A stretch of 64,000 nt of DNA. Source: Populus alba (lineage: Eukaryota > Streptophyta > Magnoliopsida > Malpighiales > Salicaceae). Below, in pieces: positions 20,691-58,883 of this stretch. The stretch covers positions 5,299,875 to 5,363,874 of the forward strand of contig NC_133300.1 of the NCBI RefSeq assembly GCF_005239225.2, in the 5' to 3' direction. Each line of letters begins with the position of its first letter. The stretch's first letter is position 1. The translations under genes and the position numbers were made by a program. The notes below the pieces were generated by a model. It searched no databases. It was not told the DNA's origin and saw nothing but the letters and a program-made list of their open reading frames with translations.

Positions 20691-21151
20691 TATGGCTCCT
20701 CTGCCGACACTCTCTCCCCCATTTCTCCTTCTTCTTCCTAATCCTAACCCTCCCCATCTGCAAAATAACCAGCCCCCCCTCACCCCAAAACAAGAATTTT
20801 TCTCATCTCAGCACAACAAGTTGTATTTGTTTTGTGGTCACAGCATCCGTGTTCTGATTTACCGACGGATTTTATCATTTTTTGTAAGTAATTCTATCTT
20901 TTAAAATTTTAACATTTAAATGTTAATTTTATTGTTTTTTTAGTATATGTATTATTTTTTTTTAGTAGATGTACATGTTTTATTGTTATTTCTCAAACAA
21001 ACTTGTAGTATATTAATGTATAATTTTATACTTGTTATGGTTTGTTTTAGATTTTGTAAGATTGTATTTGTTTGAAAATTGTTAAAATTTAATTTGTAGA
21101 ATTACCGAATTACATGTTGTGTTTTGAAATAATTAAGAGCTTGCTTAATTA
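20691..21151 (+). other. Probable 5' UTR / intron of CACTA TNPD
   Basis: A short C/T-rich leader (20695-20800), then AT-rich sequence with a gtaagt-like donor at about 20884, before the first transposase codons. The ORF at 20692-20904 has no conserved domain. Confidence 0.4.
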
Positions 21152-24100: not shown

Positions 24101-24929
24101 GATTCTCGTTCATTTACCGTGTATTGATGTACATTTAATTACATATATTTACAAGGTTTATCAAATGGGAAGGAGTGCGCCCAAGTCATTGTCTTCATTA
24201 AGCCTCGGCCCTGAAAGAAAAGTTAAGTGCTACAACGGGTATTTTGTCAATGGATATGTTTTCCATACTGAAGAATACGGGCAAGGAAGAAAGACATACA
24301 ACTGCGGTGTTTGTGTTAAGGGATCCACAAGTAGCCAGTTAGAAGTTGACTACTATGGTAGATTAGAAGAGGTCGTCGAACTGCAATATCATAGCGAGCA
24401 GAATAAAGTGTTTTTATTCAAATGCTATTGGTATGACACGACGGACAGAGGAATCAGAGTTGATCCGCACCATGGTCTGGTCGAAATCAACTCAAAAGCT
24501 AGACTCCGCAACATAAACGATGTCTTTGTTTTCGCAAAGCAATGTCAACAAGTTTATTACACATACACCCCTTCATTTAGAAAGGATCGTTCAAGAGTTG
24601 ATTGGTTGTCCGTTTTAAAAACGAAACCACGGGGTCATGTCGAGGTTGTTCAGGATGAGAACGAAGACACAAGTGTGCGAGATGAAGTCTTTCAAGTTCG
24701 TGAGTTGGTTGAACCATATTGAGTTGCTCCTTCGATTGAATTGGAAGAAAATTCAAATTTTCGAGTTCTCGATGATAGTCTTGTTGATATTGACGGAGAG
24801 GAGTTGAATGTTGTTCTCAGCTCTAGCGGACAACCAAATGTCGATGAAGAAGATGATATCCATATTGAAGATTGCGATGAAGATGATGACAATTCAATTG
24901 ACGAGGAAGAAGAAGAAAATTCCGACTAA
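21152..24929 (+). pseudogene. TNPD: CACTA transposase TNPD (tnp2), broken
   Basis: This is the catalytic transposase of the element. The coding sequence starts at 21152 or, more typically, at the MDDRSWMY methionine at 21185. Domains in order are a transposase-associated zinc domain (CPCRKCQN), the tnp2 core (KIDMCPNFCMLYYL to the HIEKNVFENIF block), a DUF4218-type domain (RDLLPKGIWDALTEISHFF), and a DUF4216-type domain near 24430-24640, ending in an acidic tail. Likely introns are 23471-23543, 23862-23954 and 24055-24155, all GT-AG. Between 21960 and 22130 the reading frame shifts at least twice, and a TGA at about 24719 precedes the acidic tail. The gene is otherwise well preserved, so decay is recent. 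Confidence 0.9.
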
Positions 24930-36931: not shown

Positions 36932-37380
36932 CTGGTCAAGCAAAACAGGAGTTAAAAATGGATCTATAATAAGAATAAACGCTAACACCATTAGCCTCTC
37001 AGTTTTTTTAGTTCAAGTATTGCAAAATGGGACTTGATACTTTATCCTCTTTCAACATGGAACGTGCATATAAATTTAGTTTAATCAGGTACTGAAAAAG
37101 GTATCATTTGTGTGGCTCTTAAGATCAAATTAGTTATGCCATATTTACAAATGCAACTGTCTAGCAAGCAAACTTCTTCTTATCAATAACACCAATCAAC
37201 TAGCACATGTTCAATGTTAAACTAATTGAGATCAAACACAAAACGGAGGCTAGTATTCTGAATAAATCTGTTTATTATGAATGCATTGACTTAACCTAAA
37301 TACAAATAAAGTATATATAGGTTAAACTGAAAGTACTATTCTACGCTTAATAAATAAAACAACATAAATATTATTTAACA

Positions 37381-39436
37381 TCTCCCCTCAAACTCACGAT
37401 GCGACAACTACAAACATCGAGAGTTTGCCAACTAGAAAACGAAAACGAGATATGGAATGCGCCTTGGTAAAGAAATCTGCAATCTGCAATGAAGAAGGAA
37501 CAAAAGGCAAAGTAATGGTTCCATGCTTAAGATGATGACGAGTAAGATGACAATCGATTTCAATGTGCTTAGTCCGCTCATGAAAAACTGAGTTGTGAGC
37601 AATCTGAATAGAACTCTAGTTGTCACAATACATAGGAGTAGGATGGGAAAAGGAAACTCCTATATCAGCAATAACCAACGTAACCAAATAATCTCTTTGG
37701 TAGTAGATGTCATGGCACGATATTCTGCTTCGGTGGATGATTAAGAAACAATAGATTGTTTCTTGCTCTTTCAAGAAATAAAAGAATCACCTAAAAAGAT
37801 ACAAAACCCGGTAACAGACTTGCGATCTGTGGGATCACTACCATGATCAGCATCAGAGTATGCACACAACTCCAAGGAAGAGGTGGATGAAAGTAAAAGA
37901 CTTTGAAAAACTATACCCCGAAGATATCGCAAATTACGAAGAACAGCTGCCTAGTGAACAGTAGTAGGAGAAGTAACAAACTGACTAACAACATGAACAG
38001 CATATGCAATATCTGGACGAGTAATGGTGAGATATACCAAACTCCCAACAATAGTGCGGTATAAAGTAGGATCTATCAAAGGTAAACCATCAGAAGAAGA
38101 GTACCTTGCGTTAACCTCAATAGGAGTATCCACAGTCTTGTTATCAGTAAGTCTAGCCCGCTCAAGAATATCTGCAACATATTTCGACTGAGAAAGAAGG
38201 TAACCTCTAGGTGAGTATGCTACCTCAATACCCAAGAAATATCTAAGATAACCCAAATCCTTCATCTCAAATCGTCTAGCCAATTCTGTCTTCAAAACTG
38301 AAATACCATCAATGTCATCACCAGTAATAATCATGTCATCAACATATAAAGACAAAATGATACGACCTGCATCAGTGCACTTAATAAAAAGAGCAGAATC
38401 ATGACTATTAGAAACAAAGCCAAGTGACGAGATCACAATAGAGAATTTCTCAAACCAAGCACGGGGTGCTTGTTTGAGACCATATAATGCTTTCTTAAGC
38501 TTACAAACATATCCAAAGTCATGTGAAATACCAGGAGGGGGTGCCATATAAACTTCTTCTTGAAGATCTCCATTCAAGAAGGCATTTTTAACATCAAGTT
38601 GAGAAATATGTCATTGACGAATCGAAGCTACAACAATAAGAGTACGAATAGTAATCATTTTTGCAACCGGAGCAAATGTCTCCTCATAGTCCATACCATA
38701 CTGTTGAGAGTATCCTTTGGCAACCAACCTAGCTTTATATCGCTCAATAGACCCATCAGAATTAGTCTTGATCTTATACACCCAACGACAACCAACAACA
38801 CTCTTACCAGGAGGTAGAGGAACCAGATCCCAAGTATCTGTCTTATGCAAAGCAGAAAGTTCCTCATCCATAGCTTGCTGTCAAAACGGATCAAGAATTG
38901 CCTCTTTATAGGAAGAGTGCTCAACAAGACAATGAATAGAGGCTAAAAAGGAAGTAAATGATGAAGAATAACAAGAATAAGCAAAATCTGGTAGTTTTGT
39001 GACTTACGAATACGGATGGACTGATGTGGAGGTGGATCCACAATCTCAGATGAAGCTTGAGGGGCTGTAGATGAGAATGGAGCTTCAGGTGTGCCAGAGA
39101 GTAAAGTACCAATACCTGCAGAGTTATGAGTACAAATTGATCGAACATGGGGAGAGCTATCATCACCAGAATCCTCAGAAAATGGATTTATACTAATAAG
39201 ATCAGATTTACTCAGGCTATGAGTAGTGGATGGAATAGAAAAGAAAGGTATATGCTCAAGGAAGACAACATGACGAGACACATAAAGTTTATGAGTTATT
39301 GGATCAAAACAACGATAACCCTTTTTACCTTCACCATAGCCCAAAAAGACACAAATAGCGGATCGAGAGGATAGCTTATTTCATTCTACATGAGGACGAA
39401 GAACGAAACAAGTACAACCAAAGACTCTAAATGAGG
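37381..39436 (-). pseudogene. Copia pol, RT and RNase H part
   Basis: This is the 3' half of the Copia polyprotein. From the Athila junction it resumes with the end of integrase (SSFRVFGCTCFVLRPHVE, then a stop), continues through ICVFLGYGEGKKGYRCFD and RT ([20 protein letters not shown], 38871-38611). It then reads the catalytic LYVDDMIITG (38577-37951) and ends in a decayed RNase H with stops below 37951. Stops at about 38600 and 37950 and frame changes near 38930 make it inactive. Confidence 0.85.
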
Positions 39437-39441
39437 AATAA

Positions 39442-39714
39442 TGACACGACCAAAAGCTTGATGTCTTCTCCCAAGTGCAGGAGTGTCAAAGTAATAAATA
39501 ACCCGGCAAGACCGGGGTCGAACCACAGAGAGGTTAATTGTATAAATTATAAATAACAACGCAACAATAACAATAATAACGATAATAATAACAATAGTAG
39601 TACTAGTAATAGTAATAATAATAATAATACTCAGTACGTGGCGTTGTTATACCTGAGAATAATCTAAAAGATCGGGTCACAGGTTTCCAGCCTATATACT
39701 GAGTTTATGAACAG

Positions 39715-39754
<40 letters not shown>

Positions 39755-39914
39755 CAAAAATAATAAAGAAGAGAAGGAAGAAATTAATAAGAACTTTGAG
39801 TTGAAAGATTAATGTAAGGATTAAACAACGATAAAAATAAATGTCAAGGTTAGAGGATCCACTAATGGTACTTCAAACAAGTATAGTATAAACTCTTATT
39901 ACTCAATTGGAAAC
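39442..39914 (-). mobile_element. 3' LTR of Athila element, U5 part only
   Basis: Aligns with 50966-51436 with about six substitutions plus microsatellite length changes, then loses similarity abruptly after the shared phrase ggaaaccacacataa. The U3 portion of the 5' LTR (51437-52690) has no counterpart here. The complement carries GTGGTTCGACCCCGG, common in Athila LTR ends. Confidence 0.8.
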
Positions 39915-41065
39915 CACACATAATCTATCCAGATAAACAAACTCTCATTAAATTTATATTACTGCTTCATACTTTCTTAAACAAGATATTAATAAACCTT
40001 CTTTTTATGTGCTCAATATATGAAAACATAGATGATGAGGCTTTTGTTGGAAGAAAACAATATTATGTTCAAATGTTTAAGGTGAACTTCCTTGGGTTGG
40101 GATTATTATTATTATTACTTTTTTTTTTCTTCTTTTTTTTTATTTTTTTTTATTTTTATTTTATATACACATACAACATAATGTATCTTTAACCCATGTA
40201 ACGAGTTTTAGGCTAATGACTCCCAGACCAGTTGGTCTTAGGGCATTAGGTGTTGAGACACCCCTACGAGCTTAACAACTCGGGTTGTAGATACTGATAC
40301 GTAGATAGTGCAATGTTTGATTCCCTTAAGCTTTTCTCCTTAAAACATGTAACAAGCTTTGGGCCAATAGCTCCCAAGTCAGTTGACTTTAGGGTATTAG
40401 GTGTTAAAACACCCTTTCGGGCTTAATTGCTTAGGTTAGGTTAGGGAAGCTACGAAACCAAACTTATCTACGTTTTTATTATCATCAATATTATCATTTT
40501 TTTTTTTGAAAGTTATATACTATCCCTTTTCCTTAGTTGTTACATTTAACAAAAGAACATAAATAATGTAATAATCCAATGTGCAACCCACAATCATATG
40601 TTAAAGTGTGTGTGTGAAAATGAAGGTTTAATAATACTTGTTAAATGAGTATATGAGCAGAATCCAGTGATAACAATGCGAGAGTTTGTAAACCTGAATA
40701 TTTCAAGAAGTATTCTAATAGGCCTTGTTATGAATATTGCAAATAACCATTAGAAAATTTTTACTATGATGCGTCTCAAGAATAATTCCTCTTTACTCTG
40801 CCATCCTAGTAATAACAGTTTTGCCAAATGGTTTTTTAAAAACAACAACAGTTAGTTGGTTAGTTTTTTTTTTTTTTTTTAAACTATTACCCTCTCCCCC
40901 CAACCAAAACGAGACATTGTCCTCAATGTCCTAAGGTAGAAAGATAGAGTATAGAAGACATCACCTGAAACAGCAAACAATGACAAACCTGAAACACACT
41001 TAAACAAATATAAGAAGTAACAAAACAAAATAATATGCTATTAATAACACAAAAGACACAAGGTT
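39915..41065 (-). mobile_element. 3' untranslated zone of Athila element
   Basis: Includes a twice-repeated segment of about 110 bp (about 40195-40290 and 40345-40440: agcttt-ggccaat-gctcccaagtcagttg-cttagggtattaggtg), T-runs, and on the minus strand GAGGACAATGTCTCGTTTTG followed by GGGGGGAGAGGG (about 40890-40925). The latter is the sequence style found ahead of 3' LTRs in Athila-type elements. No ORF is credible. Confidence 0.55.
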
Positions 41066-41718
41066 TCACAGATGAAGGCTCAAATCTAATCTAAGCTTTT
41101 TACGGCTTTCCTTAGCTGACCAATCTAGGCGACTCATGCAAGGATCAATGACAGGGATGAAAGATTGTAGTTGGTCAATCAATTGTTCAGCAGTAGCAGC
41201 AGAGATTATGATTTGTCGTGCTGAAGATGTTAGAAATTCCTGTTCCACAGCTTGATCAAGGAAAGACAGCAACTTATCATAAAACCATTAACATTTAACA
41301 AACCTATAGGTTTATGGTGAATGTGCAGTTGGGCCCAAGATAAAATATGAAAGATCTCTTCCAATGTGCCCAGACCACCTGGTAAGGCAATGAAGGCATC
41401 AGCATGGTTAAACATGGTATTCAGTCGGTCAGACATTGTTGGGACCTGTAGTTCCTCTCCAATTGTTTTTCCAATGATGTCCTCATTTGCTAAAGCTTTG
41501 GGGACAACCCCCAAAACTTGACTGCCTCCTAAAAATTCAGCCATTGAAACACCTCCCATTAACCCAAGGCTGCCTCCCCCATACACTAAATGAATCTTTC
41601 TCTTAACTAGTACTTGACCAAGATGATTTGCTGATTCTAAAAACTCTTTTTCTTTCCCAGGGCTGGATCCACCGAAAACACAAATATTTCTTATGTGATG
41701 ACTTGAGGAACCTGCCAT
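41066..41718 (-). pseudogene. LOG: Intronless LOG (cytokinin riboside-5'-P phosphoribohydrolase)
   Basis: LOG enzymes release active cytokinin bases from their riboside monophosphates. The ORF starts MAGSSSHHIRNICVFGGSSP at 41718 and shows the family landmarks in order: VYGGGSLGLMG, a conserved arginine in MSDRLNTM, and the catalytic PGGLGTLEE. It then runs HKPIGLLNVNGF and, after a one-base loss near 41280-41286, FLDQAVEQEFLTSSARQIII in the next frame to a stop at 41066. About 217 codons match normal LOG length. Plant LOG genes have several introns; this copy has none, which suggests a retrocopy. It lies inside the Athila element, in the element's sense, with its own leader. It is divergent from LOG1-9 types as I remember them. 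Confidence 0.85.
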
Positions 41719-41784
41719 TTCTACACACTTCTATATTTGATGAATGTATGGGATGAGTAGAAATGAAGGGAAGGAAGAGAAGAA

Positions 41785-41793
41785 TTTATAAAT
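41785..41793 (-). promoter_or_regulatory. TATA-like box upstream of LOG copy
   Basis: Minus-strand ATTTATAAA, about 70 bp before the LOG ATG, in a C/T-rich leader. Another TATA-like site precedes the small ORF at 45261, suggesting separate internal promoters. Not tested. Confidence 0.4.
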
Positions 41794-41998
41794 GAAAAAG
41801 TGAAAATGCAATTATACCACCTACATGTAGGCCAGCTGTAGTCTCACACTCTCTCTCTTTATTAATTTATTTTGACAAAGCATGTATGTACAGGTAGTTG
41901 TGATTGTGGCTCACATCTTCCCTTGGTTTTACGTCCAAGAACGGCTTAAACGCCCTCTATGGGTCGGGGACAGGCTTCCCATCCAGTTTTCTTAAAAA

Positions 41999-43761
41999 CT
42001 AGCAAACAGGGTCTTTTTTAGTCAGATTCCTAAGACTAAGTCGATCATGTTCTTTATGGAATTGTGGCCATAAATCATGAATTATGTTGTAAACCATTTT
42101 TGGGTCCCCGCAAAAAAAATAAAATAAATAGCCAAAGAAGGTTAGAAAAATAACAGGAGGCAGAAGCGCTTGGAAAATGGTCAGAAAATTGGTCAAGGAG
42201 TATAAAGATACAAAGATTGGATTTTTGACAATATATTCTTGAAGGATGAGAACCCTATTGAGAAGGAATTTTGAATTTTGAGGAGAGAAGCCCAAATTTG
42301 GATGTTTATGGGTTTAATTGATTTTTTTAATTGGATTTATAGGGGATTTGATTGCAAGAAAATTGATTTTTAAGTCAATTTGGGCTTTAAATTGAAGAAA
42401 TTTAAGTTCTGGGGCCAAATTATAATTTTTAGGATTTTATTAAGTCAAATCAGGGGCTTAATTGCATAAATATTGAAGTTTAATGGCCAATTAGGGGTTT
42501 AATTGTGAAAATCCGAAACCAGGGACCAATTTGGAAAAGGCGCAAAGATAAGGGGGCTGTTTGGAATTGATTGAGGGGCCTAATTGAAGAAATTGGAAGT
42601 TTATTGATCAATTGAGGGCTAAATTGCATAAATCAGAGGCCAAGGACCAAAGTGGAAAAGGCGGCCAACTAGGCGGATAAGACCGAAATTGGCAGGGACG
42701 CAATTGAAAGGAACAAAAATAATTGGGGGACTGATGTGAATGTTGGCGCGTTTCTGGCGCCACTTTTAAATGAAACGGCGCGTTTTCTCCAAAACAACGT
42801 CGTTTCATGCGTTTAAAAAAAAAAAAAAAACCAAACGGTGCCCTTTTGAACGGCACTGTTTCTCTTCTTCTTCCCCCCCCCCGCAGGCGTAGCAGAGAAG
42901 AGGAAAACCGGGGTTTTTGTCCCCGCCTCTCTCCTCACGTGCCATGGCCAGACGCTCCACGCCTTGGGACCCCCGAAACCGAAGCCACTGGCCGACCACC
43001 CGCCGCGCCACCGAAACCGAGAGCAGCTCCTTAGCAGCGGCGCCTGCCGACCGACCGACCAGCACGCCTCGCTCCCCACGCGGTCACGCCCCGATATCCC
43101 TATAAATAAAGAAGAAACAAAAAAAAAGGAAGAGGAACGGAGAGGGGGACCCGAAAAAGAAAGAAAAACCGAGACAGTGAGAGAGAGAGGAAGAGAGAGA
43201 AACACCATAACAGAGGAGAGACCCAAGAAAACCGAAAGCAAAGGGAAGGTTTGAAACCGGGAAGGAAGTGAGAAAACTGAAACCAAGCAAACGAACCGAG
43301 AGGACGTCGCCGGACCACTTGGAATTCGCCGTGAGGAGCCGACGTGAGTTAGGTCACTGCCACCGCCTCCACCGCAGCACCGCCAGCTAGCCATCGTCTC
43401 CGCCGCGCCAGGTACGCCTCCTCCCCTGCACATTTTTTGTTAATCTTGTTTAAATTCTTGCCCCCTGCATGCAGAATCGTTTCTACATGCAGGAGGCGGG
43501 GGGGGGAATAATTCCCCCCCCCCGTTCATTCGTTTTTTACTGTTGGGCCAGACAGGGTCTGGCCTCGGGATGTGTATGGGCCAGAGGGATTCTGGCCCAA
43601 CCCAGCGGTTTGGGCCGGTCCGGCCCAGACCAAGGTAGGGTGTTGTTGGGCCGGGGTCGGCCCAACGATTTTTGGGGCTGGTTCCGGCCCAGTTAGTTGG
43701 GCCGGCCCAGCCCACTTAATATATTAATATTATATTAATATTATAGTAAATTATTATATTA

Positions 43762-43794
<33 letters not shown>

Positions 43795-43862
43795 TTTTAA
43801 TAAAAAAAAATAAAAAAAAATTCCGAGAAGTCTAAAAAATATATTGTTGTTTGCTTTTCATA

Positions 43863-43920
<58 letters not shown>

Positions 43921-45069
43921 TTTTTTATATACATTGATTTTTTTTTATATTATGGGGATATAATTTCAGTGTTTAAAAACACCCGTTTTCGTCAACAAAA
44001 AAAATAAATGTTTTTCTTGCTTGTTGCATACGGCCACTACTCTAACATGTTTTGAATTTTCTTTTTATATATAAAAAAATATTGGAAGCTTTGAAGGTGT
44101 GTGTTTTCGCATAGATTTCTTTAAACACAAATTATTTTCTTGCATTTGTGGATTTTACAACATGTTTGTAAAACTCCAAAGGGTATTGGCCAATATTCCA
44201 AAAACTATAAAAATCTTATTTTGAGAGGAGAAATTGTAGTTATTATTCACCGCTAATGTTTGGATAAAGAAATCTTTAAAAGGATGAACATCCAAAATAT
44301 TATTGGGAGTAATAAATCGGCACACATGTTTGAAAGAAGCTTTGGTTATAATCGAGGACATTTCAAATTTTATTTTTTTATTTTTTTTTATTTTTTTACT
44401 CCACGGTTTACGAGTCGTGAAAGTATAAAATCGTTTTTTAAGAGTTGTGAATTTTTATTTTTTTTTCTTTTCCCTTTTCCTGGCGATTTACGAGTTGCCA
44501 ACTCCTGAAATACTAAAGAAAAAATGAACTTTCAAAGCACATGGAATCTCCTTAGGTTTCTATCCAAGATAAATTGACGGGTTCAGAAGACACCAACAAC
44601 ATAGACTATAGAGTAAACCAAACACCAAGCAGCTTACCTTAGGTAGGGCGTACTAGGGGTGCTAGTACCTTCCCTTTACGCAACCAGTCCCTTGCCTTAG
44701 AATCTCTGAAAGACCAGTTAGGGTTCCTAGTGACCAAATACTATGTGGCGACTCCAAAGAACCAAATCATTAGAACACAACGAAAATCGCCAACCGATGT
44801 CGCGCCTTATAAAAATTTTTTGTGGGGGTGTGACAAATTACACGATGCACATCTCCACTAGGATGCGTCTCAAGGGTCAATAAAAGATTATCTAAAGACC
44901 TCTTACTCAGGCCATCCTTAATGAATTGTATTTTATCTTCACGGTTTACAGAAACCATTCCTAAAGAACGACATGTCGCATTACAAGTCCATCTAGCACA
45001 TCTGTGACAGACTTTCAGTCGTTTTGCACGACGTTTCTTTGCAAAAGTGCTTTTACCTGTTCCAGGCAT
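41999..45069 (-). pseudogene. Basic cysteine-rich small ORF, split by a solo LTR
   Basis: The ORF begins MPGTGKSTFAKKRRAKRLK at 45069, followed by a C-x2-C-x4-C-x3-C cluster and a helical C-terminal part. It is interrupted at 44840 by the solo LTR, and its last 28 or so codons resume at 42084 and stop at 41999. The solo LTR's AATTA duplication sits exactly at the break, with the same frame on both sides, so the ORF was open when the LTR landed. A basic stretch before a small Cys cluster is the layout of nucleic-acid-binding cysteine-rich proteins, including those of some flexuous plant RNA viruses. Homology is not established. It lies 36 bp after a 51-aa ORF. Confidence 0.6.
42085..44835 (+). 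mobile_element. Solo Ogre/Tat-type LTR (2751 bp)
   Basis: It starts TGTTGTAAACCATTTTTGGG and ends GGGGGTGTGACA, with the exact duplication AATTA at 42080-42084 and 44836-44840. It has a TATA box at 43101-43108 and the conserved U5 block at 44630-44760. There is no PBS, internal DNA or second LTR, so it is a solo LTR left by LTR-LTR recombination. A long TA microsatellite (about 43860-43917) and purine/pyrimidine-rich leader give many false ORFs (42805-43433 minus). Confidence 0.95.
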
Positions 45070-45105
45070 GTGTGAAATGAAAGAATTAGAGGACTCACTT
45101 GATAA

Positions 45106-45261
45106 TCAGACCTTTGCTTCAATCAGCCAACGAATATCTTCAGGAATTTCATGGTTCATTAACAACCTCAATCTTTCACACCTAGCACGGTAAATTTTTG
45201 TAATCGCATTCTGAGGCAGAGCGGGAAAATACTTTTTCAATTTTTTAAGAGTGGTGTCCAT
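45106..45261 (-). CDS. 51-aa ORF behind integrase in the Athila element
   Basis: Starts MDTTLKKLKKYFPALPQNAI and continues through a charged, probably helical region (RARCERLRLL) to IEAKV. It follows integrase by about 210 bp, preceded by a TATA-like TGTATATAAT (45321-45330) and a C/T-rich leader. It has no frame damage. I do not recognise the family. The conserved-looking start and the tight spacing to the next ORF suggest a shared transcript. Confidence 0.45.
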   Translation of the reverse strand: MDTTLKKLKKYFPALPQNAITKIYRARCERLRLLMNHEIPEDIRWLIEAKV

Positions 45262-45320
45262 TTTCAAATGAGAATTGGATGGGAGATTCAAAGAAAGAAG
45301 AAAGTGCAGAGAATTGCACA

Positions 45321-45330
45321 ATTATATACA
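45321..45330 (-). promoter_or_regulatory. TATA-like box before post-integrase ORFs
   Basis: Minus-strand TGTATATAAT, about 60-70 bp upstream of the ATG at 45261. It could start a separate transcript for the ORFs behind integrase. Prediction from sequence only. Confidence 0.35.
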
Positions 45331-45471
45331 TAGATATCAGTTATCATGGGAAACTGAAAGAACTGACTTAAGAGTCACGGAGTACCGTTATCCGCCATTT
45401 GACCGGGGTGAGAGAAACTAGCAAAACAAAAGATACACCAAAACAAACACAAAACAATGTGAGAAAAAGCT

Positions 45472-48400
45472 TCAATCTTTATATACAGGATCACTCAATT
45501 CAGTAGAGTCATTTTCAACTGAAAAATTGTCAAAATAAACTTTCAACCGATGCCCATTTACCTTGAAAACATTGTCATTCTTTGGATTCTCGATATCACA
45601 GGCCCCATATGGATACACATGTTTCACAATAAAAGGACTGCTCCATCTTGATCTTAGTTTTCCAGGAAATAAATGGAGTCGAGAATTATAAAGCAAGACT
45701 TTTTGACCAACATTGAATGTTTTTCTCAGTATTTTCTTGTCATGAAACTCTTTGATTTTTGCTTTATGAATTCTTGAATTGTCATATGCATCATTTCTAA
45801 TTTCCTCAAGCTCATTTATTTGCAATTTTCGCGGCTGACTAGCATCATCAATGTTTGAATTGAAAGCTTTAATAACCCAATAAGCTTTATGTTCAATTTC
45901 CACAGGCAAGTGACAAGGTTTTTCATAGACTAGTCTATAAGGTGACATACCTAATGATGTTTTATATGCAGTTCGATAAGCCCAAAGTGCATCATTAATT
46001 CTTAAAGACCAGTCTTTCCGATTAGGGTTCACCGTTTTCTCCAAGATTTGTTTGATCTCCCTATTAGCAAGCTCTACTTGTCCACTTGTCTGAGGGTGAT
46101 AAGGGGTGGCAACTTTGTGTGTGATTCCATATTTCTTCATTAAAGAAGCAAATGGCTTGTTGTAGAAATGTGTTCCACCATCACTTATTATGGCTCGAGG
46201 AATTCCAAATTGACTCAAAATATTGTCTTTCAAAAACTTTATCACTGTTTTGTGATCATTGTTTCGACTTGGAATTGCCTTTATCCATTTTGAAACATAA
46301 TCTACTGCGACTAATATGTACACAAAACCAAATGATGGAGGAAATGGACCCATGAAATCTATACCCCAACAGTCAAAGATCTCAATGAAAAGAATAGGAT
46401 TTAAAGGCATCATGTGACGTTTTGAAATAGATCCCAACTTTTGACAATTTTCACAAGTCTTGCAGAATGCATGTGAGTCTTTGAACATGGTGGGCCAATA
46501 AAATCCACTTTGTAAGATTTTTGCAGTTGTTTTTCTTGATGAGAAATGACCCCCACATGCCTCAGAATGACAAAATTTAATGACACTACTTACCTCATTG
46601 TCAGGAATGCATCTTCAAAATATTTGATCAGGACAATATTTGAATAAATAAGGGTCATCCCAATAAAAGTTCTTCACTTCGTTCAAGAACTTTCTTTTGT
46701 CTTGGGTACTCCAATGAGCTGGCAATTGTCCTGAAACAAGAAAATTAACAATATTAGCAAACCAAGGCATCGTAGAAACGGAAAAAAAAGATTCATCGGG
46801 AAAGTAGTCATCGATTGGTGTGATGTCAGATTTCGAATATGTTGTCAATCTTGACAAATGATCTGCAACAACATTTTTGGTGCCTTTCTTGTCTTTGATT
46901 GTGATATCAAATTCTTGAAGTAACAAAATCCACCGCACCAATCTAGCCTTAGAATCTTTCTTAGAAAGAAGATATTTCAATGCTGCATGATCACTAAAAA
47001 CAACAACAGGTGAGCCAACAAGATAAGATTTGAATTTATCACAAGCAAATACTACTGCAAGTAATTCTTTTTCAGTGGTGGTGTAATTCATTTGAGCACT
47101 ATTTAAAGTTTTACTTGCATAGTAAATCACATAAGGTTTCTTATCTTTTCTTTGTCCCAAGACAGCACCCACGACATAATCACTAGCGTCACACATTATT
47201 TCAAAAGGTAATGACCAGTCAGGAGGTTGAATGACAGGAGCAGAAGTAAGCAAGTTTTTAAGTTTAACAAAGGCTTCTTCAAAATGTTCAGTCCATTCAA
47301 AAATATTATCCTTTGTTAGAAGGTTACTCAAGGGCTTAGATATTACACTAAAATCTTTGATGAACCTTCTGTAAAAACCAGCATGTCCTAAGAATGATCT
47401 AACATCTTTAACAGATTTTGGTGTTGGTAAGTTGGCAATTAACTCGATTTTAGATTTGTCAACCTCAATTCCTTTCGATGAAACAATGTGACCAAGTACA
47501 ATGCCGTTTGTTACCATAAAGTGACATTTTTCCCAATTCAATACAAGATTCTTCTCTTCACACCTGCTCAAAACCTTTTCTAAGTTAGTCAAACAATCAT
47601 CAAATGAATCACCAAAAACAGAAAAATCATCCATAAAAATTTCAAGAAAACGTTCAACTATATCACTGAATATGCTAAGCATGCATCTTTGAAACGTGGC
47701 TGGTGCATTACATAATCCAAAAGGCATCCTTTGATATGCAAAAGTACCAAATAGACATGTGAAAGTAGTCTTCTCTTGATCTTCCAATGCAATTTCAATT
47801 TGATTGTAACCTGAATAGCCATCTAGGAAACAATAAAATTCATGACCTGCAACTCTTTCTAGGATTTGGTCCATGAAAGGTAAAGGGAAATGATCTTTTC
47901 TAGTCATTGAATTAAGTTTCCTATAGTCAATGCACATGCGCCAACCAGTAACAGTCCTAGTTGGAATTAACTCATTTTTCTCATTTGTTATCACAGTGAC
48001 TCCAGACTTTTTGGGTACAACTTGGGTAGGACTTACCCATTTGCTGTCAGAAATAGGATAAATGATTCCATTATCTAGAAGCTTAATGACTTCATTTTTC
48101 ACTACTTCTTTCATATTAGGATTAAGCCTTCGTTGCATTTCTCTAGAGGGTTTAGCATTTTCCTCCAAATAAATCATGTGTGTGCAAATCAAAGGGCTAA
48201 TTCCTTTTATGTCAGATATGGTCCATCCTAATGCATTTTTGTGCATTTTCAAAATCTATAATAACTTACCTTCTTGATGTGCATTAAGTTTGGAAGAGAT
48301 TATTACCGGAAAAGTTTCATTTTCTCTCAAAAATAAGTATTTGAGATTAAATGGTAACGGCTTCAATTCAGGTTTTGGTGGTTGAACACTTGAAGGTATG

Positions 48401-50733
48401 GGCTCAATTGATCGTGGTGGCAATTCTTCAATTTGTGGTCTCCAATTGCATGCATTTGATTCCTGAAAGTAGACCATTTGCAAATCATCAGATTCATCAA
48501 TCTCAGTTTCATTAGAAGTGGTTTGAAATTGATCATGAACTAATTTTTCAATAAAGTCCACTTCCTGTAAATCATTATCATCTCTAGGTTGCTTGTAAAT
48601 GTTGAAAATATTCATCTCCAATGTCATATTTCCAAATGATAGCTTTATCAGTCCATTCCTACAATTAATCAATGCATTAGAAGTGGCAAGAAATGGACGT
48701 CCTAAAATGACAGGAATTGAATTACATGCTTCAACAGGTTGTGTATCCAAGACAACAAAATCCACAGGATAAATGAATTTATCAACTTGTACTAACACAT
48801 CCTCAACTATTCCTCTAGGCACTTTTACAAATCTATTGGCAAGTAAAAGAGTTACAGAGGTTGGTTTTAACTCACCTAGATTGAGACTTTGAAAGACTGA
48901 ATATGGAAGTAAATTCACACTAGCTCCAAGATCAAGTAAGGCTCTTTCAATTTTATGTTCTCCAATAAAGCAAGAAATTGTAGGACAACCAGGGTCTTTA
49001 TATTTCAAAGCATTATTGTTCTGAAGAATGGCACTTACTTGTTCGGCTAAAAAGGCTTTCTTTTTCACATTCAGTTTTCTCTTCACGATGCACAAATCTT
49101 TCAAAAATTTAGCATAGGAAGGAACCTGTTTAATAGCATCCAACAAAGGTATATTGATCCTTACCTGTTTGAAAGTTTCAAAGATTTCAGAGTTGTGATT
49201 GACTTTCCTTTTTTTGGTCATGGCATGAGGAAATGGAAGTGCTGGCGGGGAATCAGTCTTTTCTTTGCAATGTTCAGGTCCAACCCCTTCCTTACCCTCA
49301 AAGATAGACTCATCATCTTTCTCACAAGGTTCAAGTATGGGTTTTTCAATAACCTTACCACTACGAAGAGTGATGACTGATTTGACTTGATCCATGTGTT
49401 GGCTTCCGGAACCACTTGCATTTGCATTGTATTGCCCCTTTGGATTTTGTTGTGGTTAAGATGGAAACTTACCTTTCTCTTGGAAACTGAGAGCAGATGT
49501 TAATTTTGCAAAAGCATCTTTAAAATCTGTCATGCTTTGAGCAAGTTGAGTGTTGATTGTCTCCTGCTTTTCAATGAATGCATGCAATGTTTCCTCAAAA
49601 TTTCTTCTAGGAGGTGGAGCATAAGGAGGTGCATATCCATGAGAATTTTGAAAATTATGGTGTGCTTGAAACGGTGGCTGTGAAGTTTATGCATTGTTTC
49701 GATCACTCTTCCAACTGAAATTTGGGTGATTTCTCCAACCAAGGTTGTACGTTTGTGAGTATGGGTTATGGTTGGGTCTTTGAAAACTGTTTAAAGCATG
49801 GGCTTGTTCATGGAGGCATTCCTTAAAAGAAGGCAAAGTTGGACAATCATTTGTTGAATGTTCATTGGTTTCACAGATTTGACACGCAATGTCTTGAATA
49901 GATTTTAATTGACCACTCTTTTTCAATTCAAGTGCTTCGACTTTTCTAGCTAAAGATGCAAACTTGGCTTGGAGGTCATGATCTTCCCTAAGTTTGTGCA
50001 TACCTCCACTAGATGTATGAGGTTGAGTTTTACTTGGTGCCTCATAAGTACCTGTGGTGTCCCAATTTTGAGCATTTTCGGCTAGCAAGTCTAGGTACTC
50101 CATTGCTTCATTAGGGTCTTTATCTTCAAAAGTTCCATTGCACATCAATTCAACCATTTGCCTATCTCTAGGTGTTAAACCTTCATAAAAATGTGAAACC
50201 AATCTCCATGTTTCAAAACCATGATGAGGGCAAGTATTAATCAAATCTCGATACCTATCCCAACATTGGTAAAATGTTTCTCCTGGTTTTTGAGTGAAAG
50301 TGATGATTTGTCTTTTGAAAGAGTTTGTTCTGTGAGACGGAAAAAACTTCTTTAAAAATTGTTGTTGCATTTCATCCCAAGCACGAATGGATCCTGGTCT
50401 CAAATTTTGTAGCCATGTTTTAGCTTTATCTTTTAATGAAAAAGGAAAAAGCTTTAATCGAATGGTATTCATGCTACAATTTGAGTCATTATAGGTATTA
50501 CAAACCTCCTCAAATTCCCTTAAATGCAAGTATGGATTTTCTAGGTCTAAGCCATGAAAAGAAGGTAAAAGTTGAATAATGCCTGGCTTAAAATTAAAAT
50601 GAGATGCATCAGGAGGGAAAACTATGCATAAGGGTGCACTTGTTCTTGTGGGATTCATGTGGTCTTTAAGTGTTCTCATACGGTTATTCTCATTATTCTC
50701 ATTATGAAGCGATTGATTATCTTCTTCGGCCAT
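45472..50733 (-). pseudogene. Athila-like gag-pol polyprotein
   Basis: One reading frame runs from the ATG at 50733 to the stop after integrase at 45472, with no indel and only four premature stops (at about 49687, 49460, 48256 and 46615). Domains in order are gag with AKTWLQNLRPGSIRAWDEM; a CCHC knuckle (CQICETNEHSTNDC); retropepsin-like protease (LLDLGASVNLLPYS); RT with the catalytic [10 protein letters not shown]; RNase H ([16 protein letters not shown]); and a CHCC-type, DDE-type integrase ([12 protein letters not shown], then [15 protein letters not shown]). FMDDF in place of YVDDF is normal for Athila. Each stop is one C-to-T change from a plausible sense codon. It is inactive but very young. 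Confidence 0.92.
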
Positions 50734-50941
50734 ATTTTCTGAAAATGATGAGGATACCCTACAAAGTCGACCACTTAATGTACGTGATCAAACTCTCATG
50801 CACGTGTAAAAAGAGAATAAAAGGAAGAAAAGAAAATAGAAGAAAAAGAAACAAAACAAAACAAAGAAAACAAAAGTTAGATAAAATGAAAAGTGAAAAG
50901 AGAAAATAAATTAAATATTATAATTTATACAAGAATTTACC
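50734..50941 (-). mobile_element. Athila 5' leader
   Basis: Short A-rich leader between the PBS and the gag ATG. No feature beyond low complexity. Confidence 0.5.
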
Positions 50942-50959
50942 TCCCCGGCAACGGCGCCA
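50942..50959 (-). other. Primer binding site, tRNA-Asp type
   Basis: Minus-strand TGGCGCCGTTGCCGGGGA lies six bases from the 5' LTR end. It is the classic Athila-type PBS. Confidence 0.85.
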
Positions 50960-50965
50960 AAAACT

Positions 50966-52690
50966 TGACACGACCAAAAGCTTGATGTCTTCTCCCAAGT
51001 GCAGGAGTGTCGAAGTAATAAATAACCCGGCAAGACCGGGGTCGAACCACAGAGAGGTTAATTGTATAAATTATAAATAACAACGCAACAATAACAATAA
51101 TAACGATAATAATAACAATAGTAGTACTAGTAATAGTAATAATAATAATAATACTCAGTACGTGGCATTGTTATACCTGAGAATGATCTAAAAGATCGGG
51201 TCACACGTTTCCAGCCTATATACTGAGTTTATGAACAGATAATAATAATAATAATAATAAAAACAACAACAATAATAAAGAAGAGAAGGAAGAAATTAAT
51301 AAGAACTTTGAGTTGAAAGATTAATGTAAGGATTAAACAACGATAAAAATAAATGTCAAGGTTAAAGGATCCACTAATGGTACTTCAAACAAGTATAGTA
51401 TAAACTCTTATTACTCAATTGGAAACCACACATAAAGGAGGTTCCAATCAGATTATATATTGTTAACATGATTACATTAGTTATCTTATTCGAATAAAGC
51501 TAATACTTGTAAATGTTGGCAGACATTCATGATTATAACTTATGTTAACAATAAATCAAGTTCCTTTCATAGCTCAGGTGTCGGTTATGCCATACAGTAT
51601 GGGCTATGAAAGTACCAAGTATTTGTTGTACCAAGTGTTATACAACATAAATCTAGATTAACCATTTAACAAGCAAAGTATTAAAAGTGAACAAGATAAC
51701 AAATATAAAACATGTTAGTATCCAACGTTAAGGTCCATGTTAAGTTTATATTATACTCAGTCTTACACCATTAGTGTACCCTTTTCACCTTGACATAATT
51801 AACTTAGCTAAACATAATGAAAGAAAGAAACATAGATGAATAAGATAAGAACATAAATGAGAAAGAAGTTAACTAAGTAAAGGAAAGGAAATGAAGTGCA
51901 TAAACTTGAAATTAGTGAAAGCAAAACATAAGCAATACAAAGAGAGAAAGCAAGAGCATGATCTTGATCTGGAAACCAAGATGCCTCAATACATGGTAAG
52001 TGCCTCCTTTTATAGGCCAAAATTTGGAACTATTGATTTGTTAATTAATTGATGAGTGGGTGGCCACATCTTGACTTGGTGACAATCCTTATCTTCTTGT
52101 CTGAACAAGACGTCATTGCTAACATCATAATTTGCCCAGAATCCTCAGGAATGTTCTAGGAAATTGTCTCAGCTTTCCAACAAAAAAAAAGATGAGGTCA
52201 TTTGGACTTCTAGAACTCAAGATATGGGCTGAACACTAAATAGTGTCTGGGCTGCAGGACAGCTTCGGACTTCTTCGTTGTTCCTTCAGTTTGGACTTCA
52301 AAACGGCCTTTTTAAATCTTGGGCTCAGCATGAAAGTTGTAGGCCTTTGTCTTACCTTTCCATACATATAAAATGGATCTAAATCCGAGATCTAGAGCTC
52401 CAGATATGATCCAATTACCGAGCAATGTTCCGGTTTGGACTGCATCGGCATCTCTTTTCTAAGTTTGGCCATCTCTTTGTCCTTTCACTTTCAATACTTA
52501 AACTCATCAATCAATCCTTTTATTTATGTGATAGGCCTGCATTTAAAATGAGCATTTACCATAAATAAAGGTATCTTATAATATCAAACTTGTTATTATA
52601 AAACATGCTTTAGTTAAGGAGTTATTGATACTTCAAGTGCAAAATGATGATATAAAACCTTGATAAACATGCACTTTTAAGTACTAATCA
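50966..52690 (-). mobile_element. 5' LTR of Athila element
   Basis: A 1725-bp LTR; minus start TGATTAGTACTTAAAAGTGC, end GGTCGTGTCA. It contains (AAT)n microsatellites near its U5 end. The plus-strand right border is marked by the aacaa flank and the resumption of Copia integrase codons. Confidence 0.85.
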
Positions 52691-52695
52691 AACAA

Positions 52696-54806
52696 TCAGG
52701 GACATACCCATATAACTTTTCAAAAGGAGATAGACCCGAACTATGAGAAGATGGAATTGTATTAATCAAGCTTACAGTAGTAAGAACAGCTTCTCCCCAA
52801 AACTCACTAGGAACAAAAGCAGACAACAAGAGAGAACGAGCAGTTTCGACAATGTGCCTATGTTTTCTTTCAGCAACACCATTTTGCTCAGGAGTATCTG
52901 TACATGAAGTTTGGTGGATGGTTCCATCTAGGGCAAGCAATTGGAAAAATTTATTAGAAGTGTATTCCCCACCCAAATCACACCTAAAGCATTTGATCAT
53001 AGTAGAATATTGAGTTTTGATAAGAGCTCGAAAAGCTGCATATATTTCAAAGAATTCATAACGATGTTTCATTAAATAAACCCAACAATAACGAGTATGA
53101 TCATCAATAAAAGAGACATAATATCGAGACCCTCCTTTTGTGGCAACATGAGAAGGTCCCCATACATCAGAATGAATGAAATCAAATGGTGAAGAAGAAA
53201 CAGAAATACTTCGATTAAAAGGTAAGGCGGAAAATTTTGTCAATTTACATCCACTACAATCAGAAATGTCACAAGTTTTCAAATTTCCTAAAGCTCCTGT
53301 GGATGCCAAAAATCTCAAACGAGAAGACGAAACATGACCTAGGCGGGAATGCCATAAATAAAAACTAGAAGATGAAATACTCAAACGAAAGGAAGACAAA
53401 TCAACGGTAGTAGTAGCAGCGGCAGCAGCAGCAACTGGCACTTTTAACTCATCCAAAATATATAGTCCATTCTCCCTACGGCCTGTCCCAATCAGCTTCT
53501 GAGACTGCAGATCCTGTATACAACAAAAGGAACCAGAAAACATGACTAAATAATCACCAGAATCACATATTTGACCAACATACGCAAGATTCAATTTGAG
53601 TTGTGGAATAAGATAAACATTAGGGAGAGACATGTGAGGTGTGACAACAGAACCAACACCTGCTAAGGGCATTTGAATGCCATCAGCAGTCATAACAGGA
53701 ATGGAGGACAAAGGGGATACAGAGGTAAAAGATGAGGAATCTGGAGACATATGATGGGAAGCACCAGAATCCAAGACCCATTCAGAATGTGACATACCTG
53801 AGGAACTATGAGGCAACTGACCTATGGAAGAAGAAGCGGACATTGCTTGTGGCTGAAACGAGAGAAACTTCTGAAATTGCTCAGCCAAATTATTAGGATC
53901 AGTAATAGAACCTGGGGAAGCTACTGCTGCAGTATTGTGGTGTTGTGGTTTATAACCCTGAGGTGGTCTATGAGCATTAGATTGTGACTGATTGTCAGAC
54001 TTTCAAGCTTGATTCTGCTGTCTCAACTTAGGATACTAAGCCTTCAAATGACCTTTCTGCTTACAGAAATTGCACTCATCGAAGCCAACCCTTATGTAAG
54101 GCTTATTCTGATGATTAGAGAATGGCTTAGAAGGCACTGCTAATACTGAAGGATTTAAAGCAGAAAGAATTCCCTTTTCAGAATAAGACTGAAGACGTAT
54201 TTCTTCAGCCAATAACTCACTAACAACAGAGTCAATACAAAGCAGTGGAGAACGATGCAGAATTGAACCTCTAAGTCCTTCGAAATCACTATGAAGTGCT
54301 GTTAAAAACTGTACCAATCGTTGCTGCTCTCTACGCTCAATATAGGCACCACATGCCTTTAATTCTGCCGATTCTGTAAGAGCCAATTGATCCTAAAGAT
54401 CTATCATAGTAGAATAAAACTCTTGGATACTCATATTCTTCTAATGAAGAGCTCGTATGTCATTCTTTAATTGAAACTGTTTTGCAAAATTTGATTGTGT
54501 GAATAACCTTTACAGATGATCCTAAACCTCTTTTGTTGTCTCATACTTCGCCAATTGCATACCTATCGAATGCTCAACAGAATTATTGATCCAAGTAATG
54601 ATCTTTGCATTATTTGCTTCCCATGTATCTATCAAAACAACATCTCCCTCCTCAACATTCTTAGGTATCATATAAGTCTCACTAACATACCCCCACATCT
54701 TCTTACCCTTAAGGAAATTTCTCATCACATAACTCCAATACGAATAATTCTTCCCTTCTAACCTCACACTCACAGACTGAAGTGAATCATCTCTTTTAGT
54801 AGCCAT
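52696..54806 (-). pseudogene. Copia gag, protease and integrase part
   Basis: The 5' half of the Copia polyprotein. Gag starts at MATKRDDSLQSVSV (54806), passes through frameshifts near 54520 and 54390, and has the knuckle start CNFCKQKGH before a stop at about 54036. From 53888 the frame is open: protease (WVLDSGASHHMS), a GAG-pre-integrase H-x-C region (LWHSRLGHVSSSRLRFL), then integrase with FIDDHTRYCW, RCDLGGEY (usually RTDNGGEF) and QNGVAERKHRH. It ends at the Athila insertion, within the GYVPD motif. Confidence 0.88.
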
Positions 54807-55104
54807 AATCAGCAATCAAAAATAACCACAATGCAAAAGCAGCGGAAACAAAATACTAAATTGCAGAAACTAAACAAATCTCTTCTCGAAATTATACGAT
54901 TACTCCAAAACACAAAACAAATTTGCAAAAACTGAACGCAAATACCAAATTGCAGATGCTGAAGGGAAGACGAAATACCAAAATAATTGCAGAAACTGTC
55001 GAAATACCTAATTTTGCAGAAGCGGAAGACAAAATATCACTCCAAAAAAAAATTGTTGGATCCGCGAAGCTGTATTTGGGATTAAGCCTCGTTCCATAAA
55101 ACCA

Positions 55105-55116
55105 GCTCTGATACCA
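55105..55116 (-). other. Primer binding site, initiator-Met type
   Basis: Minus-strand TGGTATCAGAGC directly follows the end of the Copia 5' LTR. The same PBS is used by the TRIM at 19178-19468. Confidence 0.9.
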
Positions 55117-55617
55117 TGTTAAACTAATTGAGATCAAACACGAAACGGAGGCTAGTATTCTGAATAATCTGTTTATTATGAATGCATTAACTTAACCTAA
55201 ATACAAATAAAGTATATATAGGTTAAACTGAAAGTACTATTCTACCCTTAATAAATAAGACAACATAAATATTATTTAACACAATACAAATGGAGAATCA
55301 AATTCACAAGTTCATATGGCTAGAGATTATATGAAAGGTTAGTTTCTACGTACAAGAACGGGGCATAAAATAACATTCAGGTATCAAATGAGCTCAGCAA
55401 CACAGAAAATCTGATTTTCCCATCCTGCATTCATGTGCAAGTACTGCTGCAAATGAGCCAAGCCATTAGAGTCACTCAAAGCTCAGCTCACCAAGGGCTC
55501 GGCTCGAACTCATTTGTTAAGATATAATGAGCTTATGCAAGCCTATTTTCAAAGCTTGCTATATGATAGAGTTGAGCTTATGCAAGCCTATTTTCGAGCC
55601 CTATCATGTCTTATTAA

Positions 55618-56722: not shown

Positions 56723-58883
56723 TGTTGTAACCCAATTTTGGCCCATTGGCTTTTAATTTAATTTTTACAGGGTTTAAAATGTAAAATTAAAAGATCAGAG
56801 ACTTATTTCGATGAAAAGTGTGATTTGTCAACTTGCGTGAAAATTAAGGACTATAATGTGCTTTTACCATGCTATTCTTATCTTTGAGATAATCCTTACT
56901 TTCAAGATAATCCTTACCTTCAAAATAATGCTTATCTTACCTTCAAGATAATGATAGTTGTCTGCTTTCGAATTCGATTCTAATTCGAACTTCAAAAAAA
57001 AGAATGAGTTTGATTGAGACTTTACTTCCTACAAGCGATGAGACTCTTGCACTATAAATACTGATCCCAGTCTATGCAAAAGAGGAGGAGGAAATTAGAG
57101 AGAGAAACCCTAAAAAAGAGAGAGAAACCCTAAAAGAAGGCTATTACCCGAAACCCTACGAAAAAAGACATTTACAAAAAAAAGAGGGGGTATGGCAGAA
57201 TCCTAGACTAGCCGTTGTTGCCCCCTCCCCTGGCTTTTTCCTCTGTTCTTCCCTGGTCTGAAACCAGCCATACCTTCCCCCTCCTCGGCCTTTTCCTTTT
57301 TCATCCTCCCCGCTCTCACTCTCCCCATTAACCATCATCCTTCATCTCAGCCCCTCCATGCATTGTGAGCATGCATCAGCAACCAACAAGGCGCGCCTCT
57401 TCCAGCCAGCAGCAGCAGAAGAGCTCCAGCTACAGCACCAACACCAGGACCCTCTATCTTCACTACTGGCCTAGAAGCTGCTGCAGCCTCAGTAGCATTG
57501 AAGTTCATTTCTTTAAAAACCACTCTAGTCTGCAAGAACTCACCAAGACCACCAAACCTGTGGGACCCGACATGAGTACTTGAACTCCAACGAAGGTGGT
57601 GGTGGTGAGGCTCGGAAGGAAGCTTGAGGTCGAGAGAGAGACTAGAAGTGGAAGGTGGTGATGGGAAGTTAGTCTTCGCCTTAGCTCCACGAAGAGAACG
57701 AGTTGCACCATCATAAGCGAGAGCAGCTTCTTCAGGTGTATCAAATGTGCCTAGCCATACCCGTGTTTTCTTCCATGGGTCACGTATTTCTGCAGCATAG
57801 CGACCCTATGGTCTCTTTCGAACTCCCCTGTAGTGTCCTTCCCATGAAGAAACCATGAAAGGAAGGGAGCAAAAAGGGATGATTAAAATGAAAAGAAAAC
57901 TAGAAGAGTGAGAAGGAAAATGGATGAGCGCAGTAGAGACAAGGAGAGCACGGGAAGAAGACCAGGGGAAGAATGAAGACAAAACAGAGGAGAAGAAAAT
58001 GTTTCAGCTGGCCAGCCCTCCATCACCGTCATCTTCATCTTCAAGTGCAGCAACAGGTAAGCTTCGGTTTGCATTTTAATTACCATGTTTTTGTAGCAGG
58101 CGTGCGTGAGCAGTTCATGCACGCCTACAGGTAAAAAAAAATGAAAGCAAAAAGGAAAACGGGTTACCAGCTTATGCTAGTAACCGGGTTTCGGCTGGTT
58201 AGTTCCAGCCCAACCCGTATGCGATAGGGCAAGACTCAGTCCAAAATAAATAAAAAAAAATAAAAAAGTAAAAATAAAAAAAATATGTATGTATGAATAA
58301 AGACAATATAAATTTATTGGTTTATTCATTGACGCCAGAGTCAGGAATAAAAATACCGGTTTAAATTTATATTATTCTTTCATTGTATTTTATTTTATTT
58401 AACTAGAAAAATAAAAAGATTGTGCATGTGTAAAAATAAATTTATTTTATTTGTTTATTCACTGACGCCAGAGTCAGGAATATAAAAATATGGATTTAAA
58501 TTTATTTTGTTTTATAACTACGTAATATTTACTAACGCCAGAGTTGAAAATATTCGTAGTTGAATATTCATTGGCGCCAGAGTCAGGAATATTATAAGCA
58601 AATTATCGTAGCATAAACTAATAAACATTTAGCAATTTAAGATGAAACTAACAATGCAGCCTGCCTCAGGCAGGATGTTTAAGGGGTGATAATATCTTCC
58701 CTTTTACATAACCAGTCCCGAACCATAGAATCTATGTTGACCAGTAAAAGTTCCGAGTGACTATAATACTAGGTGGCGACTCCTTAAACAAGACATTTTC
58801 CTCTCCATCAAAGAATAGAATGTCATATATCTGTTCCTTTTCTAAATATTGTAATTTTTAAAGCCGTCGTGATGTCGGGTGCA
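56723..58883 (+). mobile_element. Ogre/Tat-type LTR (about 2.16 kb) carrying an ERF ORF
   Basis: Starts TGTTGTAACCCAATTTTGG after the polypurine tract and ends near GTCGGGTGCA. A TATA box lies at 57053-57060. Three gacgccagagtc-type repeats (about 58330-58580) precede the conserved U5 block (58675-58785), which ends AGGTGGCGACTCC. No PBS follows, so this is a 3' LTR. Between the promoter and U5 it contains the antisense AP2/ERF ORF. Confidence 0.75.
57347..57856 (-). pseudogene. AP2/ERF repressor ORF embedded in an LTR
   Basis: ERF proteins bind GCC-box promoters through one AP2 domain. This ORF opens with MVSSWEGHYRGVRKRP and continues, after a stop, as [20 protein letters not shown], then [20 protein letters not shown]. 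The stop (TAG) replaces the invariant Trp of RPWGR, one base from TGG. Downstream is [11 protein letters not shown], an EAR-like LxLxL repression motif, and the frame stays open to 57347. Total about 169 codons, a normal size for a small class-II ERF, and no intron, as usual for ERFs. It lies antisense to the LTR promoter. The last 60 or so residues, including the terminus MHAHNAWRG, may be LTR-derived. Confidence 0.82.

Follow-up and report, generated by a model that had tools for sequence, protein, structure and literature searches.

How does a gene of the LOG (LONELY GUY) family come to lie inside a retrotransposon, and does the element use it? We addressed this question for a 64,000-nt stretch of the Populus alba genome (NC_133300.1:5,299,875-5,363,874; hereafter the window, in which positions are counted from its first letter), where an Athila-type long terminal repeat (LTR) retrotransposon carries a LOG coding sequence, and we searched the genome (416 Mb, 96 contigs) for its relatives. 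LOG proved to be an established component of a retroelement lineage with a high copy number. The explanation that we favor, with a probability of about one half, is that an Athila-type element captured a plant LOG transcript and that LOG is now a gene of the element's own, presumably making cytokinin to the element's benefit.

LOG copies and their origin

An open stretch at 41230-41730 on the minus strand matched the Pfam family PF03641 (E = 2.7e-28) and the PGGLGTLEE motif is found in the window, confirming the presence of a LOG coding sequence as proposed in an initial annotation. A search of the genome with the window LOG, for which the best 40 of 1266 candidates were scored, returned 40 near-full-length matches including the window itself, with 98 to 100% identity, and one fragment. 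The window copy has 653 bases. Of the other 39 near-full-length matches, 35 have 654 and the remaining four have 652, 653, 655, and 655. Hence, the single frameshift annotated previously corresponds to a one-base loss in the window copy. Whether other copies keep LOG open had been left as a question: the 217-codon frame was open in 15 of 20 copies, and PGGLGTLEE was unchanged in 13 of these 15 frames. The lack of introns was also borne out, as five cellular LOG loci of this genome are interrupted near the counterparts of residues 70, 114, and 138, positions that the element frame crosses without a break. In all 20 copies, a TATAAAT sequence is located 65 to 72 bases before the LOG ATG.

A 32-base LOG pattern, allowing up to three mismatches, was found at 953 genomic places, and the reversed control at none. 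With PF03641 as the query, 149 of 150 matches had no stop in the matched stretch, a biased proportion since these were the best-scoring 150 of 1248 candidates. Among the PF03641 matches, we also observed a LOG class with an open stretch of 248 codons instead of 221 (e.g., C9:154949, C4:10976987), which suggests that one subfamily has its frame extended upstream. The 20 copies fetched for comparison were those whose LOG matched the window copy best, all chosen for holding LOG. In all 20, LOG had the same flanks, the downstream region and the LTR starting at the same spacing after LOG; the LTR piece was incomplete in three copies (L018, L020, and L026). On the other side, a further gene upstream of LOG was full or nearly so in 19 copies (L024 having a fragment), and the integrase was present in full in 14.

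Two possible sources of this gene were considered. In a 13-row tree, the element LOG protein fell on the plant side, separated from five bacterial rows by a 98/96 split, on a long branch (0.84 vs plant LOGs) that was flagged by the program. A bacterial origin was rejected on the basis of this position, the three bacterial relatives found being at most 50% identical. Thirteen LOG genes have been counted in Populus, according to the accessible part of PMC3866579. Probing the genome with the last exon, we found 16 cellular-LOG-type matches listed above the element copies; the seventeenth, C8:17246488, contains a stop and was excluded. Five of the 16 were fetched, and no donor was found among these five loci, whose exon proteins were approximately 42-62% identical to the element protein. 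The longest DNA match of the element LOG to two cellular LOG genes was 51 bases at 82%. A splice-junction pattern had 22 genome matches, of which the five that were read (L037 to L041) were all intronless older copies and not a donor, and a third probe returned element-type copies only among the best 150 of 1195 candidates scored. The capture of a LOG mRNA, as inferred in the initial annotation, is nevertheless supported: the missing introns and the plant-side position in the tree both fit, although the donor gene was not found.

Selection signature

The selection analysis suggested by the initial annotation was performed as a comparison of nonsynonymous (N) and synonymous (S) polymorphisms, expressed as pN/pS. 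In the 19 or 20 young copies, private LOG variants comprised 36 N, 14 to 15 S, and 4 stops, while shared variants comprised 2 N, 6 S, and no stops. The shared changes were therefore skewed to silent ones, with a pN/pS of 0.10 as compared to 0.71 for the private changes (Fisher p = 0.013). The upstream gene had values of 1.10 (private) and 0.22 (shared; p = 0.003), and the region encoding protease, reverse transcriptase (RT), and RNase H had values of 0.73 and 0.25 (p = 2e-5). The integrase went in the same direction (0.56 and 0.23) but was short of significance (p = 0.07). For this four-region comparison, copies with less than 90% of a region were left out and the frameshifted copy L021 was kept; L021 was left out of the LOG counts in the sets with 19 young copies, three older copies, and six older copies. 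When the three older LOG copies (~89-96% identity) were added, the changes common to at least two copies were 7 N and 17 S. The private LOG changes of older copies L037 and L038 amounted to 39 N and 2 stops vs 12 S (p = 1e-4), and those of L025b to 7 N vs 5 S (p = 2e-4 for all three older copies). Since the shared changes are mostly silent and the private ones near neutral, these data point to purifying selection while the element spread. Judging from these variants, the LOG protein is likely under purifying selection in the transposing lineage, with inserted copies decaying near-neutrally. The apparent preservation of LOG during this spread suggests in turn that the element uses it.

The proportion of open frames was 15/20 for LOG, 8/19 for the upstream gene, 5/14 for the integrase, and 1/13 for protease-RT-RNase H (the one being the reference copy), keeping in mind that shorter genes more readily remain open. 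A deletion in pol is common to four copies (L013, L019, L020, and L027), and three of these (L013, L019, and L027) share a second deletion, in the integrase. LOG was open in all four, with a motif change in L020. Along with LOG, they also still carry the upstream gene, the latter being free of stops and frameshifts in L019 only.

The window element and its upstream gene

The window element is composed of the following features, with positions in the window.

39437..39441, no strand: left copy of the target duplication, AATAA in plus-strand letters; the copia reading frame fits on both sides
39442..52690, minus strand: Athila-type LTR retrotransposon, broken, ~13.2 kb, right end approximate (LTR pieces, open reading frames, flanks, and ends)
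39442..39923, minus strand: what is left of the 3' LTR; its alignment to the 5' LTR agrees in 462 of 482 columns, with gaps in 12 of the 20 others
41066..41718, minus strand: LOG gene, 653 bases owing to a one-base deletion; 217 codons (654 bases) when intact (Pfam, genome matches, and fold)
41784..41790, minus strand: TATAAAT box preceding the LOG start, possible core promoter (sequence)
42085..44835, no strand: nested insertion TG...CA of 2751 bases with a 5-base target duplication, AATTA (sequence)
44770..45105, minus strand: part of a nucleic-acid-binding-protein-like gene (Pfam Carla_C4 / Viral_NABP; open stretch)
45472..46614, minus strand: integrase (Pfam PF17921, PF00665)
46615..48255, minus strand: RT and RNase H (Pfam PF00078, PF17917, PF17919)
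48256..49455, minus strand: protease part of pol (Pfam PF13650)
49687..50787, minus strand: gag (Pfam PF03732)
50938..50965, minus strand: primer binding site region (sequence beside the 5' LTR)
50966..52690, minus strand: 5' LTR, ~1.7 kb (sequence, and LTR matches after LOG in other family copies)
52691..52695, no strand: right copy of the target duplication, AACAA; one mismatch, 4/5 bases matching the left copy

The open reading frames (ORFs) on the minus strand are in the Ty3/gypsy order, with the integrase after RNase H. The element shares with the Athila clade (Ty3/gypsy, OTA group) a gag gene, the order protease-RT-RNase H-integrase, long LTRs, and extra ORF space between the integrase and the 3' LTR. 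The stretch beside the 5' LTR resembles what we take to be the 3' end of a plant tRNA-Asp, presumably the primer also used by Athila. Neither the RT-RNase H ORF nor the integrase ORF gave a Pfam match to the additional (archaeal-type) RNase H at E <= 0.001, which is weak evidence; in the available text of PMC6317226, this domain marks Tat, the sister clade of Athila. In place of the env-like or Athila ORF-1 proteins of described Athila elements, the extra ORFs encode a virus-type nucleic-acid-binding protein and a LOG enzyme. The initial annotation had likened LOG to the Athila env-like ORF, a likeness that holds for position and nothing beyond it. LOG does lie on the sense strand of the element, downstream of the integrase (46614-45472) as annotated, but a further gene that had gone unmentioned separates the two. 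Likewise, the element had been described as nearly intact and target-duplicated. The target duplication (AATAA/AACAA) stands, while intactness does not: the 2751-base insert cuts the open stretch of the upstream gene at 44836, so that the last bases of this stretch fall inside the insert, and the 3' LTR keeps only 39442-39923 out of ~1.7 kb.

The second extra gene, between the integrase and LOG, has approximately 182 codons in intact copies. Its product passed the curated Pfam cut-offs of both PF05515 (23 bits) and PF01623 (20.9 bits), with respective scores of 26.9 and 28.3 for the window, 31.5 and 26.9 for L012, and, just above the cut-offs, 24.3 and 21.6 for L025. It thereby resembles the cysteine-rich/nucleic-acid-binding proteins of carlaviruses, allexiviruses, and mandariviruses but, unlike these, is carried by an LTR retrotransposon. 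Its cysteines are spaced C-x2-C-x4-C-x3-C, presumably closer than in the viral proteins. A pattern search of IMG/VR for relatives of this ORF matched 14 stretches, none of which was confirmed, and its structure model was uninformative (predicted local distance difference test, pLDDT, of 39.8). Viral proteins of the carlavirus type suppress RNA silencing, and one is a transcription factor causing hyperplasia, according to the accessible part of PMC12172455.

Other repeats surround these genes. The nested insertion at 42085-44835 is perhaps a solo LTR, and a 135-base segment close to its end recurs at five other window positions. The Athila-type insertion splits the pol (52677-54002 and 37951-39380) of a host copia element at 37198-55281, which has LTR-like repeats at 37198-37380 and 55100-55281. 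Elsewhere in the window, an open stretch at 57347-57805 matched the AP2 domain with 33.1 bits, just below the Pfam cut-off of 33.3, and several long ORFs at 21149-24722 have what we take to be the look of a CACTA-type transposase. Outside the window, six of the 22 matches to the LOG splice-junction pattern cluster at C19:97-288 kb, and the stretch L042 (C19:280000-284900) consists of truncated element copies in tandem, with a unit of ~3.77 kb. Near 8590-8650 in L012, a stretch resembling a primer binding site comes after the LTR downstream of LOG, as when two tandem elements share an LTR.

Predicted enzyme, alternatives, and significance

The best solved relative of the element LOG protein was Arabidopsis At2g37210. 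The model of the protein (pLDDT 73.8) had 2a33 and 1ydh as best Foldseek matches, with At2g37210 and other LOGs ranking first. The catalytic residues Arg99 and Glu122 and the prenyl-pocket residues have been defined in the LOG of C. glutamicum (CgLOG; accessible part of PMC4979012). In an alignment of the L025 protein with CgLOG, the phosphate-binding motif was kept, as were both catalytic residues. Within the prenyl pocket (M96, H97, K100, E125, and W129 in CgLOG numbering), M and W were kept, while H97, K100, and E125 were replaced with S, L, and H. The element protein shares with plant LOGs (cytokinin riboside 5'-monophosphate phosphoribohydrolases) the fold, the PGGxGTxxE motif, the catalytic Arg and Glu, and the plant-side place in the tree, and differs from them in its lack of introns, three pocket changes, long branch, and location in a retroelement. 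The mycobacterial LOG also deviates in the prenyl pocket (same part of PMC4979012), indicating that such changes bear on the substrate rather than on membership in the wider LOG family. The function given in the initial annotation, cytokinin-activating, is thus favored by the kept catalytic residues and made less certain by the three pocket changes, leaving a cytokinin substrate plausible from the sequence. Since plant LOG enzymes split by product, as stated in the available text of PMC11593424, the activity of the element LOG should not be assumed.

A captured LOG gene serving the element could operate as follows. A plant LOG transcript would have been captured long ago, probably once, by an Athila-type retrotransposon. 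LOG would be made from a 3' transcript, with the conserved TATA box located just upstream, and the enzyme would strip the ribose phosphate from cytokinin or similar N6-modified adenine nucleotides. Raised local levels of active cytokinin could then favor dividing, meristem-like cells, in which new copies may be inherited. By analogy with the carlavirus proteins, the upstream protein may act beside LOG on RNA silencing or transcription. A tentative and rather doubtful extension is that the two genes form a host-manipulation module, in which a virus-type nucleic-acid-binding protein and a hormone-activating LOG would push cells to division and out of silencing, comparable to animal retroviruses with captured growth genes and gall-forming bacteria with cytokinin genes.

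Several observations weigh against a captured LOG that makes cytokinin for the element. Three of the five pocket residues differ from those of plant LOGs, and a plant-type cytokinin pocket is therefore not seen. Two of the copies with open frames, L020 and L026, deviate from the PGGxGTxxE motif, and the catalytic Arg is missing from L026 as well. As no donor was found among the examined matches of the last-exon, splice-junction, and third probes, the donor gene would be unsampled or lost. The shared variants include two stops in the upstream gene and one in pol, and some variants could look shared through recurrent mutation or gene conversion. The contrast was also weaker when six older copies were included (with the partial LOG of L042 left out): shared-old changes were 20 N, 24 S, and 1 stop (pN/pS of 0.25), as compared to 0.60 for private old and 1.04 for private young changes (overall Fisher p = 0.008), and a small class of shared-young-or-mixed changes had 8 N and 4 S (0.59). 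Furthermore, because the 20 copies were picked as LOG matches, the share of elements without LOG is not readable from them.

It is quite possible, if on balance doubtful, that the element uses a LOG-like enzyme not for cytokinin but on other nucleoside monophosphates, shifting the nucleotide pool or a nucleotide signal so as to aid reverse transcription or blunt a defense. The nucleotide-binding motif and both catalytic residues kept beside an altered pocket would agree with this, as would the long protein branch, and the same evidence of selection applies; however, in a small tree the protein falls on the plant side, and cytokinin nucleotides could still be processed despite the pocket changes. 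It is improbable that LOG was acquired once and has since been propagated as a passenger of no use to the element. Individual copies do decay near-neutrally, with stops among their private changes, and other plant elements carry transduced genes (available text of PMC7264820), but the shared changes are mostly silent, if less so with the six older copies, and LOG is open in the four pol-deleted copies. The high copy number would suit a LOG part that works as RNA, its small RNAs dampening host LOG genes, but the low similarity to cellular LOGs at both the DNA and exon-protein levels and a selection that appears to act on the protein sequence make this very unlikely. Lastly, a processed LOG pseudogene inserted separately into the window copy alone, the alternative raised in the initial annotation, would account for an intronless and frameshifted LOG but is ruled out by the common flanks in 20/20 fetched copies and by the 953 genome places. 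In addition, L012, the single copy inspected for it, has no poly(A) with target duplication bracketing LOG (longest flank-to-flank direct repeat of 8 bases).

A LOG gene captured and kept by an Athila-type element is comparable to maize Bs1 and other gene-transducing LTR elements, which likewise hold a spliced cellular gene inside an LTR element. According to the available text of PMC7264820, which also names Bs1, transduced genes in plant LTR elements are present in one or few copies, while LOG is found at ~950 places, with the same flanks in 20 copies, and seemingly under selection. A large survey of extra ORFs set a floor of 250 codons (accessible text of PMC6317226), below which both LOG (217) and the upstream gene (~182) fall. 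We found no report of LOG in a retrotransposon among the open-licence papers listed in our searches, covered by titles and the starts of abstracts, with most subscription papers outside this search. To our knowledge, it is not known where most extra ORFs of plant LTR elements come from or what they do. Given an extra ORF with an enzyme identity, ~950 genomic places, and a selection signature, the usefulness of such genes to an element can be put to the test. Should cytokinin be the product of the enzyme, the hormone balance of the tree could receive input from hundreds of LOG genes beyond the known family, and LOG gene counts in such genomes would need re-reading.
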